The translations under genes were made by a program, and so were the position numbers. Below, in pieces: positions 47,366 to 53,306 of a stretch of 64,000 nt of DNA. The stretch's first letter is position 1; every line of letters begins with the position of its first letter. The DNA is from Spirosoma validum. GTDB taxonomy: Bacteria; Bacteroidota; Bacteroidia; Cytophagales; Spirosomataceae. The notes under the pieces were generated by a model. It was given only the letters and a program-made list of their open reading frames with translations. It searched no databases and was not told the DNA's origin. Location of the stretch: assembly GCF_014699035.1 (NCBI RefSeq), contig NZ_JACXAA010000006.1:1-64000 (forward strand), read 5' to 3'.

Positions 47366-47377
47366 ATGTTTTCAGTC

Positions 47378-47416
47378 ATAAAAAAGGCTCGTGTTGGTAG
47401 CACGAGCCTTTTTTAT
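47378..47416. terminator. Terminator after the GlsB gene and the cobalamin operon
   Basis: Arms AAAAAAGGCTCGTG/CACGAGCCTTTTTT with a 7-base loop, between convergent genes, T-runs on both sides. Confidence 0.8.
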
Positions 47417-47430
47417 GGCATATCTGTTTG

Positions 47431-48159
47431 CTAATCCTGCAGTGTTAGGTCCTGATATAAAAAGCCTGTATCCCAGCCAGCGTCGGTTTTCTCACTGGCG
47501 TCAGTACTGGCTGAAACTTCGTAAACTCGCCTGACAACCTCTCCTTTTTGGTATACTATAGGCGATGAGAAAATAGGACCATCGAATACAAAGGAATGAT
47601 ACTCACCGTTTTCGCCACAAGGATCAACGGTTTTAGGCAAGCTCCTCAATAAATCCAGTGACAGTTCCTGACCTACCAACTCAGCGCTTAGGTACTTTTC
47701 ATTAACACAGACCAACACAGCCCGGAAGCCCAGATCAACAAATTCATGTATCAATTCGGTCGTGTTACGTTGCCAGAGCGGGAATATGGCTTTCAAACCA
47801 ACCTTCTGCAACTGCTCTTCTCGATAGAGCCGTAGATCTTCCAGGAAAATATCACCGAAGATGGAATGCGTAACACCGTCCGCCCAGAAAGGCTGAAGCG
47901 TTTTCTGCATATATGCATCATACGCTTCCATCGACACATCTCCCGGCAGATTCATCCTATTCAGTGGCAAACCTAGCCGACCTGCCTGAGCGGCCAGTAA
48001 TTCAGTTCTTACGCCGTGCATACTCACACGACCATAGTGCGCATTGACGCTGGTCAATAAACTCTGAATGTCCCACTGATCCGATTGAAGAATATGATAC
48101 AGGGCGAGAGCTGAATCTTTACCCCCGCTCCAGTTCATAATCGCCCGTTGTCGGCTCAT
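47431..48159 (-). CDS. Dph6-like PP-loop ATPase (diphthine--ammonia ligase family)
   Basis: 242 residues. The PP-loop NWSGGKDSALALYHILQ (9-25) activates a substrate by adenylation. The rest, with SMHGVRTELLAAQAGRLGLPLN, FGDIFLEDLRLYREEQLQ, FPLWQRNTTELIHEFVDLGFRAVLVCVNEKYLSAELVGQ and DPCGENGEYHSFVFDGPIF, matches Dph6/COG2102. Bacteria have no diphthamide, so the name is a family label. Last gene of the B12 operon, overlapping the lipoprotein gene by ATGA. It may therefore act on a corrinoid intermediate or side chain (inference). Confidence 0.85.
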   Translation of the reverse strand: MSRQRAIMNWSGGKDSALALYHILQSDQWDIQSLLTSVNAHYGRVSMHGVRTELLAAQAGRLGLPLNRMNLPGDVSMEAYDAYMQKTLQPFWADGVTHSIFGDIFLEDLRLYREEQLQKVGLKAIFPLWQRNTTELIHEFVDLGFRAVLVCVNEKYLSAELVGQELSLDLLRSLPKTVDPCGENGEYHSFVFDGPIFSSPIVYQKGEVVRRVYEVSASTDASEKTDAGWDTGFLYQDLTLQD

Positions 48160-49223
48160 CGAAAATAAAAGCCTGAAGGCGCAATCTCTGCTCTAACCGA
48201 ATCAACTAAGGCACCAGTTTCCTCATAGCGGATCACGTAACCCGCCTGTGTATAAAGTGCCGGATATTGACTACCATACAATCGGCCAGTCAGCGGATCA
48301 ACTCCCAAGGCACTAAATGCCCGATTAAAGACTAAATTCGCCGTAGAAGCCGTCGTTTCGTTAATCGAGAACTTATACGTCCGGTTGCTGGCCGAGTAAA
48401 AAAATGTTCTCTTATCGCGGCTTAAAGCTACAGCGGTCGGTGTAGCTGGAAGTGTTATCCGTTTCGAAATAGCTCGGGTACTAACGACCATCTGAATCAT
48501 TTCTTTCCCGGCTAACACCCACAAATTACCATCAGCATCTAAAGCAATAGGTTGTGGCGCAGTACTGAACAAAGTGCTAATCCGCTCTTTAACTTCGTTG
48601 GTCTCGGTATTGATAACCGCCAGTGTTTTGTCGCCACTATAGCTAACGCTTCCGGCAAACACTTCGTTACCCGCTACTACCATGGCTTCAACCCCTTTCA
48701 CAGCCGCAATCTTTTTCGTAACTGTACCGCTGTTCAGATCAACGACGGCTATATAGCCTGGGTCTTTAAAGAAGGTTCCGGCAGAGAAATCGCCAGATAC
48801 GTCCCAACAACTGACGTATGCCTTATTTAGACCAGCCTGAACAACCCGGCGCGGATTTTCAATGTCTGGTGTCTTTAAAGTAGTCCGGGTTTTAAACGTA
48901 CCCGACTCAACAATTTCAACCTTGTCCTGTCCGGGGGTGGTATTATCGACCAGCAAAAGTCCTTTCCCGTTCACTTCCGTATAGTCCTGCACTCCTCCGC
49001 TGATTTTTAAATCCGCGTTAGCCTGTACGAAAATGTTAGTCAATACGGTATTACTGGTTCGAGGTAGATACGAAAGCGTTCCGTTGTTGCTACTAAAGTT
49101 ACCTTGATTGATAATATAAACACCTGTATCATAGAGAGATGGTTCTGGATCGGAGGTTTTACAGTTCCATACGATCAGCGCCAGTAAGCTTAGCGCAATT
49201 CCTTTGGTCAATTGCTTTTTCAT
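48156..49223 (-). CDS. DUF5074/YncE-like surface lipoprotein
   Basis: 355 residues. Lipoprotein signal MKKQLTKGIALSLLALIVWNC with Cys at 21, then a beta-propeller: YDTGVYIINQGNFSSNNGTLSYL, GVEAMVVAGNEVFAGSVSYSGDKTLAVI, VALSRDKRTFFYSASNRTYKFS. Family members sit beside TonB receptors for cobalamin and may bind corrinoid at the surface. Middle gene of the operon, overlapping the genes on either side by four bases. Confidence 0.82.
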   Translation of the reverse strand: MKKQLTKGIALSLLALIVWNCKTSDPEPSLYDTGVYIINQGNFSSNNGTLSYLPRTSNTVLTNIFVQANADLKISGGVQDYTEVNGKGLLLVDNTTPGQDKVEIVESGTFKTRTTLKTPDIENPRRVVQAGLNKAYVSCWDVSGDFSAGTFFKDPGYIAVVDLNSGTVTKKIAAVKGVEAMVVAGNEVFAGSVSYSGDKTLAVINTETNEVKERISTLFSTAPQPIALDADGNLWVLAGKEMIQMVVSTRAISKRITLPATPTAVALSRDKRTFFYSASNRTYKFSINETTASTANLVFNRAFSALGVDPLTGRLYGSQYPALYTQAGYVIRYEETGALVDSVRAEIAPSGFYFR

Positions 49224-51181
49224 AAAGTATTAGATGGAAAATTAATAAATAGGTTGAGCGCCCAGTTACGCCCCGGCATTGCATTTTGCTTTACGTTGAT
49301 GATTAGTGTATCAAATAGGTTATTGATCTGACCCTGTAGCCGAACGGGTACGGGACCTAGCCTGGCTGTCGTTTCCAGCAGCACGCTTGTTAACGTAACA
49401 CCCTTAAAAAATTGGCTGTTATCGAATGTGACGTACCGGCGCGACGTCGTTTGTGATTGGATGGTCAGACGAGTTCGGCCGTACTGCACATACGCATTGA
49501 GCGTACCCATATGAATCGGTACATAAGGTAGTTGTTTACCTACAACATCCTGCGAATACGTATCATAAGCCCTCTCCTGCGATGTGCGCGTTAGTCCGTA
49601 ACCTGTGCGCAAACCCGCCCGCCACTTATTCTGGACGTACGTCAACGCAGTGGTTAACTCACCCCCTCGCGCAACAACAAGCTGAAGATTTTCGACGTGA
49701 TAATTTTTGGCGGGATTCCAATACGACCAATCATCTACACGATTGTGATAAGCAGTGGCTTCAGCCGTTAAATGTAAATGATCTGAGAACGTAACGGCAG
49801 CGGCCAATCCACCTTCAATATTGACTCCTCGCTCAGGGCGCAAATCAGGATTGCCGAGTACAAGCCAGTAGCGTTCGTTAAGGGTAGGGACGCGGTAGCT
49901 GTATCCCACCGACCCTTTAGCCGTTAGGACCAGTGCATCATGTTGTATGATTTTGTACTCAGCACCCAATGAAGGCGTCAGAGGAGGATTGAAGCGGGTG
50001 ACGAACGCTTGCCGGAGATTAGCTGACACTAACCATCGGCTTGTCTGGAGACGTAGCAGCGCGTATAAATCCTGCCGGTTTTCCGTAATAAGATTTCCGC
50101 CATACCCATCCGTGCGTGTTCGATAATGCGACCACTCACCACCAATCCGAAGCGTTAAGTTACTACGTTGTTTGGTAGGCCAAAACGAAAACTCCCGTTC
50201 GACACGGCCAATGTATCGATCGGTCTCTGTATGGCTAGGTTGCTCAAAATTACCTTTCCCATAATCGATTATGTCGCGAATCCATCCTAGCCGGACCGTC
50301 ATTCGATTGGCTTCGTACGTTGTCAGAAACCGGGCCGATTGCGTTCGGGTGCGCTCACGTGCGATAAGATCCTGAGGCGTAATGATTAGGTCGTTATCCG
50401 TCAACCACACGTTGACTGACACTTGCCGTCCGCTTTTGTGCCGAAAAAACAAATCCTGCACCAAACCTCGCTGCGCCGTTGTTGATGGTTCAACAAAATA
50501 GCCTTTACGCTCCCGATATGGGTAATCATTATTAATCTGATTTCTATAGCCAAACGTTCGTCCCGAAAATTGCCACGATTCCCCCAGCGCTCCTCCATAG
50601 CGAACGCCAATCTGCGTCTGATTATTCCGAAAAGAAGCTATCTGCTGGCCGATCGTTACGCCTAATTTCTGCTTCCAGTCCGGACTACTGCCCAACAAAA
50701 TACTCCCACCAACGGCATCGGAACCAACCACACAGCCCCCCGATCCGTATTGCACCGACAACCGGTCGAAACCCGCAATTGGTAACGTAGAAAAATCCGT
50801 CTGTCCCAGATTGGGTTGATTGATGTTAATACCATTCCAAAGCACCGCGGTATGATTAGCCGACGTACCCCGAAATGAAACGGTGGCTAACTGACCGGGA
50901 CCGTAGTTCTTGAAGGCCAGTGGCGTGTTATAAGTCAATAAATCCGTTAGTGAACTGAACCGAAACTGAAGCAAGGTCGTCGAGTCAATTTGCTGAAGCT
51001 TCTGGCCCGCTAAAAACCGCTCAGGTGCAATCGCTCGCACAGTCACTGCCGACAACGAGACGACAGGGCTCGTTTGCAATGAATTTATTGATGACGAATC
51101 CGTCTGCGCAAAACTATCCTGGCCGATCAGCAAACTGACAAACAGGCTAATTATTCGCCAATACAGGGATAGTTTTCCCAC
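49220..51181 (-). CDS. TonB-dependent receptor, BtuB-like cobalamin transporter
   Basis: About 653 residues. A likely GTG start at 51181 gives a clean signal peptide (GKLSLYWRIISLFVSLLIGQDSFAQ). The plug domain runs to about residue 150 (LSAVTVRAIAPERFLAGQKLQQIDSTTL, ATVSFRGTSANHTAVLWNGININQPNLGQTDF, VQYGSGGCVVGSDAVGGSI), then a 22-strand barrel ending LNLFINFPSNTL. An ATG at 51277 is immediately after the riboswitch and would add 32 residues that do not look like a signal peptide. Control by the cobalamin riboswitch upstream and the DUF5074 partner identify B12 or a related corrinoid as the ligand. Confidence 0.87.
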   Translation of the reverse strand: MGKLSLYWRIISLFVSLLIGQDSFAQTDSSSINSLQTSPVVSLSAVTVRAIAPERFLAGQKLQQIDSTTLLQFRFSSLTDLLTYNTPLAFKNYGPGQLATVSFRGTSANHTAVLWNGININQPNLGQTDFSTLPIAGFDRLSVQYGSGGCVVGSDAVGGSILLGSSPDWKQKLGVTIGQQIASFRNNQTQIGVRYGGALGESWQFSGRTFGYRNQINNDYPYRERKGYFVEPSTTAQRGLVQDLFFRHKSGRQVSVNVWLTDNDLIITPQDLIARERTRTQSARFLTTYEANRMTVRLGWIRDIIDYGKGNFEQPSHTETDRYIGRVEREFSFWPTKQRSNLTLRIGGEWSHYRTRTDGYGGNLITENRQDLYALLRLQTSRWLVSANLRQAFVTRFNPPLTPSLGAEYKIIQHDALVLTAKGSVGYSYRVPTLNERYWLVLGNPDLRPERGVNIEGGLAAAVTFSDHLHLTAEATAYHNRVDDWSYWNPAKNYHVENLQLVVARGGELTTALTYVQNKWRAGLRTGYGLTRTSQERAYDTYSQDVVGKQLPYVPIHMGTLNAYVQYGRTRLTIQSQTTSRRYVTFDNSQFFKGVTLTSVLLETTARLGPVPVRLQGQINNLFDTLIINVKQNAMPGRNWALNLFINFPSNTL

Positions 51182-51278
51182 GTTGATTACTAAAAAAGAT
51201 AGGTGCTGAAACGCTGGATTGCCACTACAGCACGCGGTCAGGGCGTTTCCTCCGAACACCAGAACAGCGGTGGTCATC

Positions 51279-51458
51279 GGCAGGTCTCCTGGCTTGTCTC
51301 ATCGGCTCGAACCTTCCCGCACGATTGATCAGTGCAGTGGTCACGTAGAATGAACCGACTTTTCTAGAGACTTACAGTTGCGGGGACAGCGTCGGTTTCG
51401 CACCAACTTCCCTTTTAAGCCGTGAAAGTCGCTACGAAGCGACATCAGGCACCGAAAA
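51279..51458 (-). promoter_or_regulatory. Cobalamin (B12) riboswitch
   Basis: On the minus strand the conserved cobalamin-aptamer segments appear in order: GGTGCC near the 5' end, AAAAGGGAAGTTGGTGCGAA, CCCCGCAACTGTAAG, GACCACTGCACTGATCAA and GGGAAGGTTCGAG, then the B12-box 3' end AGCCAGGAGACCTGCC. These are the family hallmarks. It sits directly before the TonB receptor gene. The last base lies one base before an ATG, so the box itself could occlude translation. Confidence 0.93.
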
Positions 51459-51585: not shown

Positions 51586-52371
51586 ATGAATCAATCGCTT
51601 TGGTCGCTAGAGAGTCAACGTGCGCTTGTAACCGGAGGCACGAAAGGAATTGGAGAAGCCATTGTCCGTCAGTTTCTTGATTTAGGAGCGGCTGTATTTA
51701 TCGTAGCCCGTGATCATAACTTGCTACATGAACAATTAACTACGTATCGACAACAGGGCCACATTGTCGATGGGATAGCCGCTGATGTAAGTCAACCAGG
51801 TATAGCCGCTCAAATCATAGAGACTGTGAAAACAAAGTGGGGAGCGCTGGATATTTTGGTAAACAATGCAGGGACGAATATCCGTAAACCTACCGCTGAC
51901 TACAGCTCAGCCGATTATGATCATATAGTAAACACGAACCTGCGTTCGGCGTATGAACTGAGCCAGGCGGCTTATCCACTTCTCAAACGGTCAGAGCAGG
52001 ATCATCCGGTCGGGGGAAGGATTATTTTTGTTTCGTCCGTATCGGGCTTGTCGCATACCAGTAGCGGTTCACTTTATGGAATGACCAAAGCTGCTTTATT
52101 ACAACTTACCCGTAATCTTGCTGTCGAGTGGGCACCTGACGGTATTCGGGTCAATGCGGTTGCCCCCTGGTACATCAATACGCCGTTGGCATCACCCGTT
52201 CTGACGAATCCGGAAAAGTTAACGGGTATTTTGAAACGAACACCGATGAACCGAATCGGTGAGCCAGAAGAAGTAGCTTCAGTCGTTTCGTTTCTCAGCA
52301 TGCCCGCGTCGGGATACGTTACCGGTCAGACTATTTCAGTAGACGGTGGGTTATTGGCATGGGCGTTTTAA
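51586..52371 (+). CDS. SDR-family oxidoreductase (tropinone reductase-like)
   Basis: 261-residue classical SDR. Cofactor loop [16 protein letters not shown] (15-30), [21 protein letters not shown] near 91 and [30 protein letters not shown] with catalytic Ser and YxxxK. End IFSVDGG-type [13 protein letters not shown]. The KTxxxG gluconate/tropinone reductase-like look is weak; substrate unknown. Ends by 4-base overlap with the convergent isomerase gene. Confidence 0.87.
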
Positions 52372-53306
52372 ATCCCAGCCACCATGGCTTTCATTTTCGT
52401 CATCGCTGTATTCGCTACAGTTTGAGCTTCCTGCGCATAATATACTTTGTTGAATACTTCAAGCGACAGTACAATGGGCATATCTGTACGTTTGATCAGC
52501 TTCAACGTATCACGGATAGGTGCAACCCCGTCACCAGGAAACACACGATCTGCATCGGTAATTTTCTCTTTCGTAAAATCGGCGGTATAATCATTCACGT
52601 GAAAGACTTCAATAGCGGACTTTCCTACCAATGGCAGACTAACAGAGCCAGAACCGCCTTTATATAGATGGTAAATGTCCAGCAAGACTCTTGCGGAGGG
52701 ATGAGCACTTTCAATTGCCACAAACATAACTTCACCCAGGCGACTCAAATTGGGAGAAAATCCCCACAATTCTAGCTGCGGAACAACCCCTGTTTTATCC
52801 CCTAATTCTAAAATAGCACGATAGCGCTCAGCGGCTTTATGCAAATCAACTTTAGGGCTTCCAGGCGATTGGGCTCCTACCGGTGGGGTTGCTACGCGTT
52901 TACAGCCTATTTCAGCCAGCATTTCCATCTCACCTTTGAGTTGCTCAAGACCTTTAGCACGAGCGGAGTCATCATCTATAATCCAGGGGGCGAACCCAAT
53001 AGCATTTTCAACTTTTATTCCAGTGTCTGCCAGTATTTTACGCGCACTAACAGCCGTACCACCATTCTTAAGATATTGCTGTAACGTTTCAATCCATATC
53101 TCAACGGATCTAAACCCAGCCTTTGAGGCCACTTCCATTTCCTTTACGAATCCAAGTTTATGACCTCGGATGGTACTCATATTCAAGCAAATCGTAAAAG
53201 AAGGCTGAGCAGCCGGAGTAGCTTTTGCTGTACTTAAAGAAAGAGATGCACCTACAGAAGCAGTCAAAGCGGCCAGGGTTTGACGACGTGTTAAAGACTG
53301 AGCCAT
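52368..53306 (-). CDS. Secreted TIM-barrel sugar isomerase/epimerase
   Basis: 312 residues. Twin-Arg-like start [29 protein letters not shown] (RRQTL), then an AP-endonuclease-2 barrel with [53 protein letters not shown] (metal Asp/His) and [21 protein letters not shown], ending [12 protein letters not shown]. The second such secreted isomerase in the window (see 42790). It overlaps the convergent SDR gene by four bases. Confidence 0.85.

Follow-up and report, generated by a model that had tools for sequence, protein, structure and literature searches.

Proteins of the DUF71/COG2102 family (PF01902) were divided by de Crecy-Lagard et al. in 2012 into Dph6, which is said to amidate a carboxylate, and a subgroup named DUF71-B12, in which the EGGE-x-E motif of Dph6 is replaced by ENGEF/YH and whose genes adjoin those of B12 transporters in 75 of 102 cases and cbiB in 18 of 102 (PMC3541065). 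Bacteria have no diphthamide, and the same paper proposed that DUF71-B12 is a CbiZ-like amidohydrolase of pseudo-B12 or has another role in pseudo-B12 salvage. A table published in 2016 gives the subgroup as “function unknown, B12 salvage” (PMC5041015), and our literature search, which covered part of the literature (PMC5481537, PMC8305020 and PMC5041015 included), found no later paper that gives it a reaction. Here we describe an operon in a 64-kb stretch of DNA from Spirosoma validum (contig NZ_JACXAA010000006.1, positions 1 to 64,000; hereafter the window), in which a cobalamin riboswitch precedes genes for a TonB-dependent receptor, a BtuG-like lipoprotein and a protein that by its motif falls within DUF71-B12. 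Assigning this protein a B12 role amounts to a rediscovery, since that link was predicted in 2012 (PMC3541065). What is new is a narrower constraint on the substrate, drawn from genome content: apparent importers in which none of the tested genes for loop building or remodelling was found would narrow the substrates of DUF71-B12 to complete cobamides or to molecules that are not corrinoids.

The locus resembles the BtuB2-BtuG2 loci of Bacteroides, which likewise pair a TonB receptor with a surface propeller lipoprotein and whose structures 8p97, 8p98 and 8bmx are matched here (PMC6143338, PMC10404256). The main texts of these papers contain neither DUF71 nor diphth-, and a PF01902 search of one Bacteroides control genome gave no match. 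The words riboswitch, TonB and Spirosoma are, in turn, all absent from the main text of the 2012 paper (PMC3541065), and a literature search on BtuG together with Spirosoma found nothing. The cobamide-remodelling enzymes CbiZ (PF01955) and CbiR also handle imported cobamides, as the window's DUF71 protein may, and a quarter of cbiR homologs adjoin putative transport genes; unlike the DUF71 protein, CbiR belongs to the AP endonuclease 2 superfamily and CbiZ to a Pfam family of its own. Rebuilding of the cofactor after CbiZ or CbiR has acted requires CobS, which gave no match in the window's genome.

A riboswitch-led uptake operon

An earlier note on the window had described a cobalamin riboswitch feeding three genes joined by ATGA overlaps, for a TonB receptor, a DUF5074-type lipoprotein and a Dph6/COG2102-like ATPase, and this architecture holds (Table 1). 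The aptamer is complete, scores 101.9 bits against an RF00174 gathering threshold of 31.5 and is the sole Rfam match at gathering threshold within the window; the three genes follow it on the same strand in the order just given, with 4-nt overlaps at 49220-49223 and 48156-48159. The BtuB2-BtuG2 loci of Bacteroides are under riboswitch control as well. As listed, the open reading frame (ORF) of the receptor spans 49220-51277, with the ATG at 51277 falling inside the aptamer, and the likely start is the GTG at 51181, directly ahead of a signal-peptide-like stretch. The receptor matches TIGR01779 (TonB-B12) at E 1e-29 and 103.6 bits, under the curated cut-off of 599.7, and its sequence matches the Bacteroides-type BtuB structures 8p98, 8p97 and 8bmx at E 1e-51 to 7e-54 (8p98 7e-54); because the TIGR01779 cut-off is missed, the name BtuB-like rests on the structure matches. 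The lipoprotein, in whose translation a Cys-containing signal sequence is visible, scores 76 bits against PF16819 (cut-off 27.2) and matches PDB 8p97_B and eight further sequences (best E 2e-11), with 8p97_B, 8bmx_D and 3dsm at E 2e-11 to 1e-10, so that by domain and structure-chain match it is BtuG-like.

A Dph6-like enzyme that is not Dph6

The product of the third gene reaches 123.6 bits against PF01902 (gathering threshold 23.2), with no other Pfam family matched, and 85.5 bits against the archaeal Dph6 equivalog TIGR03679, missing its cut-off of 197.3. It carries the PP-loop motif SGGKDS, and the GEGGE-F-E region of Dph6 reads GENGE-Y-H (GENGEYHSF at 182-190). In an alignment of 140 DUF71 proteins, the window's included, His188 replaces, in every row, the catalytic Glu that Dph6 is proposed to employ close to its carboxylate substrate, and Gly102, Asp103, Pro127, Trp129, Asp179, Gly182, Glu183 and Gly185 are likewise invariant; Trp10 is kept in 139 rows, Cys181 in 137 and the complete ENGE-x-H pattern in 131.

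Searches of PDB by sequence return two distinct proteins, PH1257 (2d13) and PF0828 (3rjz, 3rk0, 3rk1), at E up to 0.001 with the single sequence and up to 0.01 with a profile. An AlphaFold2 model built from 58 window and relative sequences (mean pLDDT 92.4) has chains of these same two proteins as its eight top PDB matches, ATP-bound PF0828 among them, and Foldseek against PF0828 with ATP (3rk1) gives a probability of 1.00 and a TM-score of 0.72-0.73 by query length. With Dph6, as represented by PF0828 and PH1257, the protein thus shares its predicted fold, the PP-loop and the C-terminal GE-x-GE motif region; unlike Dph6 it has His for Glu188, and Trp10, Asp103, Asp179 and Cys181 differ in both archaeal proteins.

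If the protein were nonetheless a true diphthine-ammonia ligase, this would agree with the Pfam name of the family, diphthamide synthase, and with the nearest solved structures being archaeal Dph6-type proteins. The missed equivalog cut-off, the exchange of Glu for His at the key site and the lack of diphthamide in bacteria (PMC3541065) let us dismiss this reading with near certainty, and the database name “diphthamide synthase” is misleading for bacterial PF01902 proteins. The earlier note had taken the gene for a Dph6-like PP-loop enzyme other than Dph6, and family score and motif bear this out. On the evidence of PF01902, SGGKDS, ENGE[F/Y]H and a B12-transport neighbourhood, features that it shares with DUF71-B12 as described (PMC3541065), the third gene is a member of that subgroup.

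DUF71 genes and riboswitches across Bacteroidota

A random association of Dph6-like genes with cobalamin riboswitches, which by the earlier note's own account would have spoken against a corrinoid role, is refuted by a survey of 198 Bacteroidota genomes. PF01902 lies over cut-off in 50 of these (52 genes), with sub-threshold matches in G140 (21.3 bits) and a third match in G084 (20 bits) excluded. A same-strand riboswitch lies within 6.5 kb upstream of 15 of the 52 genes, a lower bound given the stricter filters of the riboswitch search, against about 0.07 expected by chance from riboswitch number and rounded genome sizes. The link is non-random and far above chance, with the qualification that a Poisson figure overstates independence, because DUF71 genes are related. 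Three further DUF71 genes have a riboswitch nearby in another arrangement (L137, L140, L144). Of the 80 genomes searched for RF00174 (all 50 carriers and 30 non-carriers, the latter hand-picked and non-random in the comparisons of CbiB, RF00174, CobS, CbiZ and PduO, with CbiB and CobS later run on all 198), 78 have it, and since it is nearly universal, only its position is informative. Among 80 named relatives, picked for similarity and with some loci cut by contig ends, the riboswitch lies upstream of DUF71 in 27 and downstream only in L036. In a DUF71 tree of 140 proteins, in which many branches are weakly supported and the second ORFs of L079 and L152 (fragments) are excluded, the state of having a riboswitch within 6.5 kb on either side switches at least 21 times. 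A supplementary search used a sequence-only profile. Since 17 of the 19 riboswitches behind this profile belong to loci L125-L175, which were themselves searched, its matches there come by construction and add no new loci; those in L031-L110 are independent.

DUF71 is repeatedly associated with BtuB-like, BtuF-like, BtuG-like and CobU/T/S genes across several lineages, the neighbour counts being lower bounds, with the DUF71 ORF missed by gene picking in some loci. This recurrence weighs against the idea that the enzyme acts on something other than a corrinoid, whether a protein, an RNA or a small molecule, and shares the operon because cells require it when B12 runs short; so does the finding that riboswitch-linked and unlinked copies carry the same motif. 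PP-loop enzymes do work on tRNA, proteins and metabolites, and the fold neighbours of the model include tRNA thiolases and QueC. No upstream riboswitch was found for 37 of the 52 genes, many of which lie amid unrelated genes, and some of these copies may therefore do something else. We consider a non-corrinoid substrate improbable, and that the DUF71-B12 enzyme handles B12 seems to us very likely.

B12 economy of the carriers

Profile searches of the window's genome found no match to CbiB, CobU, CobS or CbiZ, control genomes being positive each time, so that the cell would have no known route from cobyric acid or cobinamide to a finished cofactor. The genome, in which the adenosyltransferase PduO was found, looks like that of an importer of finished cobamide. 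This is unlike the 2012 account, which ties DUF71-B12 to CbiB and to the remodelling of pseudo-B12 (PMC3541065). CbiB, CobU and CobS are over cut-off in none of the eight genomes with BtuG and DUF71 (the window's own, four of Spirosoma and three of Larkinella), three of the four Spirosoma relatives being metagenome-assembled genomes of unstated completeness and the contig of L033 starting at BtuG, with the receptor out of view. PduO is present in 49 of the 50 carriers, the window's genome included, and a replacement of the adenosyltransferase by DUF71 was rejected for this reason.

Across the 198 genomes, 50 carry DUF71, 38 carry CbiB and none carries both. CobS was found in 56, of which 9 carry DUF71, leaving 41 of the 50 carriers with no CobS match; CobU passes its cut-off in 8 carriers. 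Within the CobS-bearing genomes, CbiB accompanies 0 of 9 with DUF71 against 38 of 47 without it, a contrast for which Fisher values overstate independence because CbiB is confined to 6 of the 103 genera in the sample. Another 49 carriers, obtained via named loci (50 chosen from the 80, L094 left out) and of unstated genome completeness, make up a second set, in which 2 have CbiB and 16 have CobS. None of the 15 genomes with a riboswitch-led DUF71 gene has CbiB, and 14 lack a CobS match; the remaining one, G171, has both CobS and CobU, and the CobU matches in G190 and G074 are sub-cut-off. For most Bacteroidota carriers, the phyletic table argues against any role that relies on CbiB at a later step. 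In genus g11, CbiB occurs in a single sampled genome (G154), where the search for DUF71 gave no match, and eight genomes have DUF71 and no CbiB.

These counts bear on the amidohydrolase proposed in 2012, which would cut the aminopropanol amide of pseudo-B12 in the manner of CbiZ and release cobyric acid for remodelling. Behind that proposal stands a strict bacterial anti-correlation between DUF71-B12 and CbiZ, in which CbiB genomes, with few exceptions, carry one or the other (PMC3541065), and the two carriers with CbiB in our second set indicate that the exclusion of CbiB is not absolute. In our sample none of the 50 carriers and one of the 30 non-carriers matched CbiZ, too few CbiZ genomes for a test of the anti-correlation. 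The path from cobyric acid to cofactor, however, needs CbiB and CobS, found in none and in 9 of the 50 carriers, and a referee of the 2012 paper objected that recruitment of a ligase superfamily for amidohydrolase activity is a great rarity (PMC3541065). We regard a CbiZ-like activity as very unlikely, and for the window's genome, with no CbiB, CobS, CobU or CbiZ match, CbiZ-like remodelling and precursor use were both rejected. The role in modifying corrinoids suggested by the earlier note therefore survives in part: the B12 link, non-random and predicted in 2012 (PMC3541065), stands, whereas the adjustment of a salvaged precursor does not fit a genome with this gene content. Cobyric acid and cobinamide, which it had named for enzyme assays, are probably the wrong substrates for this organism. 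Re-amidation, which it had also suggested, may still be the chemistry, but here it would have to act on a complete cobamide.

The enzyme might instead belong to nucleotide-loop assembly, either as a partner of CobU, CobT, CobS and CobC that works on cobinamide or on the loop itself, or as a stand-in for CbiB that joins aminopropanol (phosphate) to cobyric acid, with a residual or changed role in Spirosoma-like lineages. DUF71 lies between cobU and cobT in 18 of the 80 named loci, usually with cobS and cobC next, which fits such a role there, and the absence of CbiB from all nine CobS genomes with DUF71 points the same way. The 41 carriers with no CobS match, the window's genome among them, argue against it, as do the few independent cases of exclusion that 6 genera can offer and the co-occurrence of CbiB and DUF71 in 2 of the 49 other carriers; a function in loop assembly is in our view unlikely. 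In Fibrisoma limi, whose DUF71 protein is 69% identical to the window's and whose locus shares its downstream neighbours, the order is TonB-DUF6580-BtuF-like-cobU-DUF71 and CobS is encoded elsewhere in the genome; DUF71 is thus retained whether or not the nucleotide loop is assembled. Since apparent importers and loop-assembling organisms both carry DUF71, a reaction on the corrin part, which would be useful to both, fits best.

A possible repair of imported cobamides

PP-loop ATPases of this fold adenylate a carboxyl or carbonyl oxygen, after which a nucleophile attacks. The reading we favour is that the DUF71-B12 enzyme follows this chemistry. Cobamide scarcity, with the direction of regulation taken from the known riboswitch class, would permit synthesis of BtuB, BtuG and the enzyme; BtuB and BtuG would capture and import cobamides; and the enzyme, with ATP bound in its PP-loop, would put AMP on a carboxyl or amide oxygen of an imported, already complete cobamide. 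A small nucleophile would complete the reaction, in the simplest case ammonia restoring a hydrolysed side-chain amide. We hold the chances that the substrate is a complete cobamide to be about even, and re-amidation specifically to be a tentative suggestion, well short of probable. The fullest statement, that DUF71-B12 proteins are cobamide repair ligases which spend ATP and ammonia on rebuilding hydrolysed side-chain amides in cobamides that arrive by import and are complete in every other respect, is a little less likely again. If it is true, it would explain why DUF71 is placed behind uptake genes in organisms incapable of making or remodelling the cofactor, and it would constitute a metabolite-repair step for vitamin B12, of which our literature search found no earlier report.

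Several points weigh against a repair ligase. The absence of CbiB, CobU, CobS and CbiZ comes from profile searches, which an unfamiliar replacement would escape. Hydrolysis or another nucleophile would account just as well for the His and Cys peculiar to the subgroup, and a literature search on re-amidation of cobalamin side chains found no report. The copies with no upstream riboswitch and those between cobU and cobT, described above, also count on this side.

Further features of the operon and its relatives

Table 1. Features of the operon, with positions in the window
Feature	Position	Strand	Evidence
Cobalamin riboswitch aptamer, RF00174	51262..51471	-	101.9 bits, E 2.3e-24, model 1-189/189, not truncated
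BtuB-like TonB-dependent outer-membrane receptor	49220..51181 (likely GTG start)	-	Plug PF07715; 8p98/8p97/8bmx matches
BtuG-like surface lipoprotein, DUF5074, beta-propeller	48156..49223	-	PF16819 E 3.7e-21
DUF71/COG2102 PP-loop enzyme, DUF71-B12 subgroup (SGGKDS; DPCGENGEYH)	47431..48159	-	PF01902 123.6 bits
Near-perfect hairpin flanked by A/T-rich sequence, separating the operon from a convergent 78-aa gene	47375..47419		20-pair stem

The hairpin behind the operon is a probable bidirectional terminator; the terminator scan reported its stem for the + strand alone, the symmetry is visible in the sequence, and the scan as a whole gave 5 terminator-like sites against a shuffle mean of 4.9, that is, no excess. 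The promoter scan likewise gave no excess over shuffles (5 sites against a mean of 6.1), and single-strand folding of the leader was uninformative (z -0.96), pseudoknots lying outside the folding model. The upstream neighbour of the operon, at 51586-52371, is divergent. Past it lies a gene with an AP-endonuclease-2 fold (52368-53306), which was considered as a CbiR-type gene and set aside for its position and its Tat-like leader. The second cobalamin riboswitch of the window's genome (G000:C3:240521-240724, - strand) precedes metE (PF01717, PF08267), in a locus that has no DUF71 (L124, G000:C3:232000-246000).

DUF71 has a SIR2-family gene as its neighbour in four riboswitch-led operons (L139 7606-8301, L143 8055-8738, L146 6761-7459, L147 7908-8594) and in a Pedobacter locus in which no riboswitch was found (L092 5316-6008), the assignment being by Pfam for L092 and L139 only. 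The four riboswitch-led genomes (G080, G099, G122, G138) gave no CobS match. The sequence of the SIR2-family gene seems reminiscent of enterobacterial CobB. BtuF-like Peripla_BP_2 proteins are encoded ahead of cobU-DUF71 or DUF71 (for example L093 4259-5197, L035 4552-5514 and L139 6680-7612); they start with M.CSFLPAATQMIYDMG or similar, with no signal peptide visible, and may be cytoplasmic corrinoid binders. Between the TonB and BtuF-like genes, many B12 operons have a small DUF6580 protein (PF20221; for example L035 3864-4454), whose hydrophobic sequence suggests a membrane protein and a possible part of the transport system.

Several Roseivirga-type operons encode a pair of DUF71 paralogs, roughly 220 and 240 residues long, both of which carry the His motif. 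Such pairs, one from a short and one from a long clade, lie near B12-type transport or cob genes in L052, L057, L058, L072, L073, L076, L077 and L083, and the short and long paralogs differ at the otherwise conserved positions 108, 112 and 113, a pairing that suggests two substrates or a working pair.

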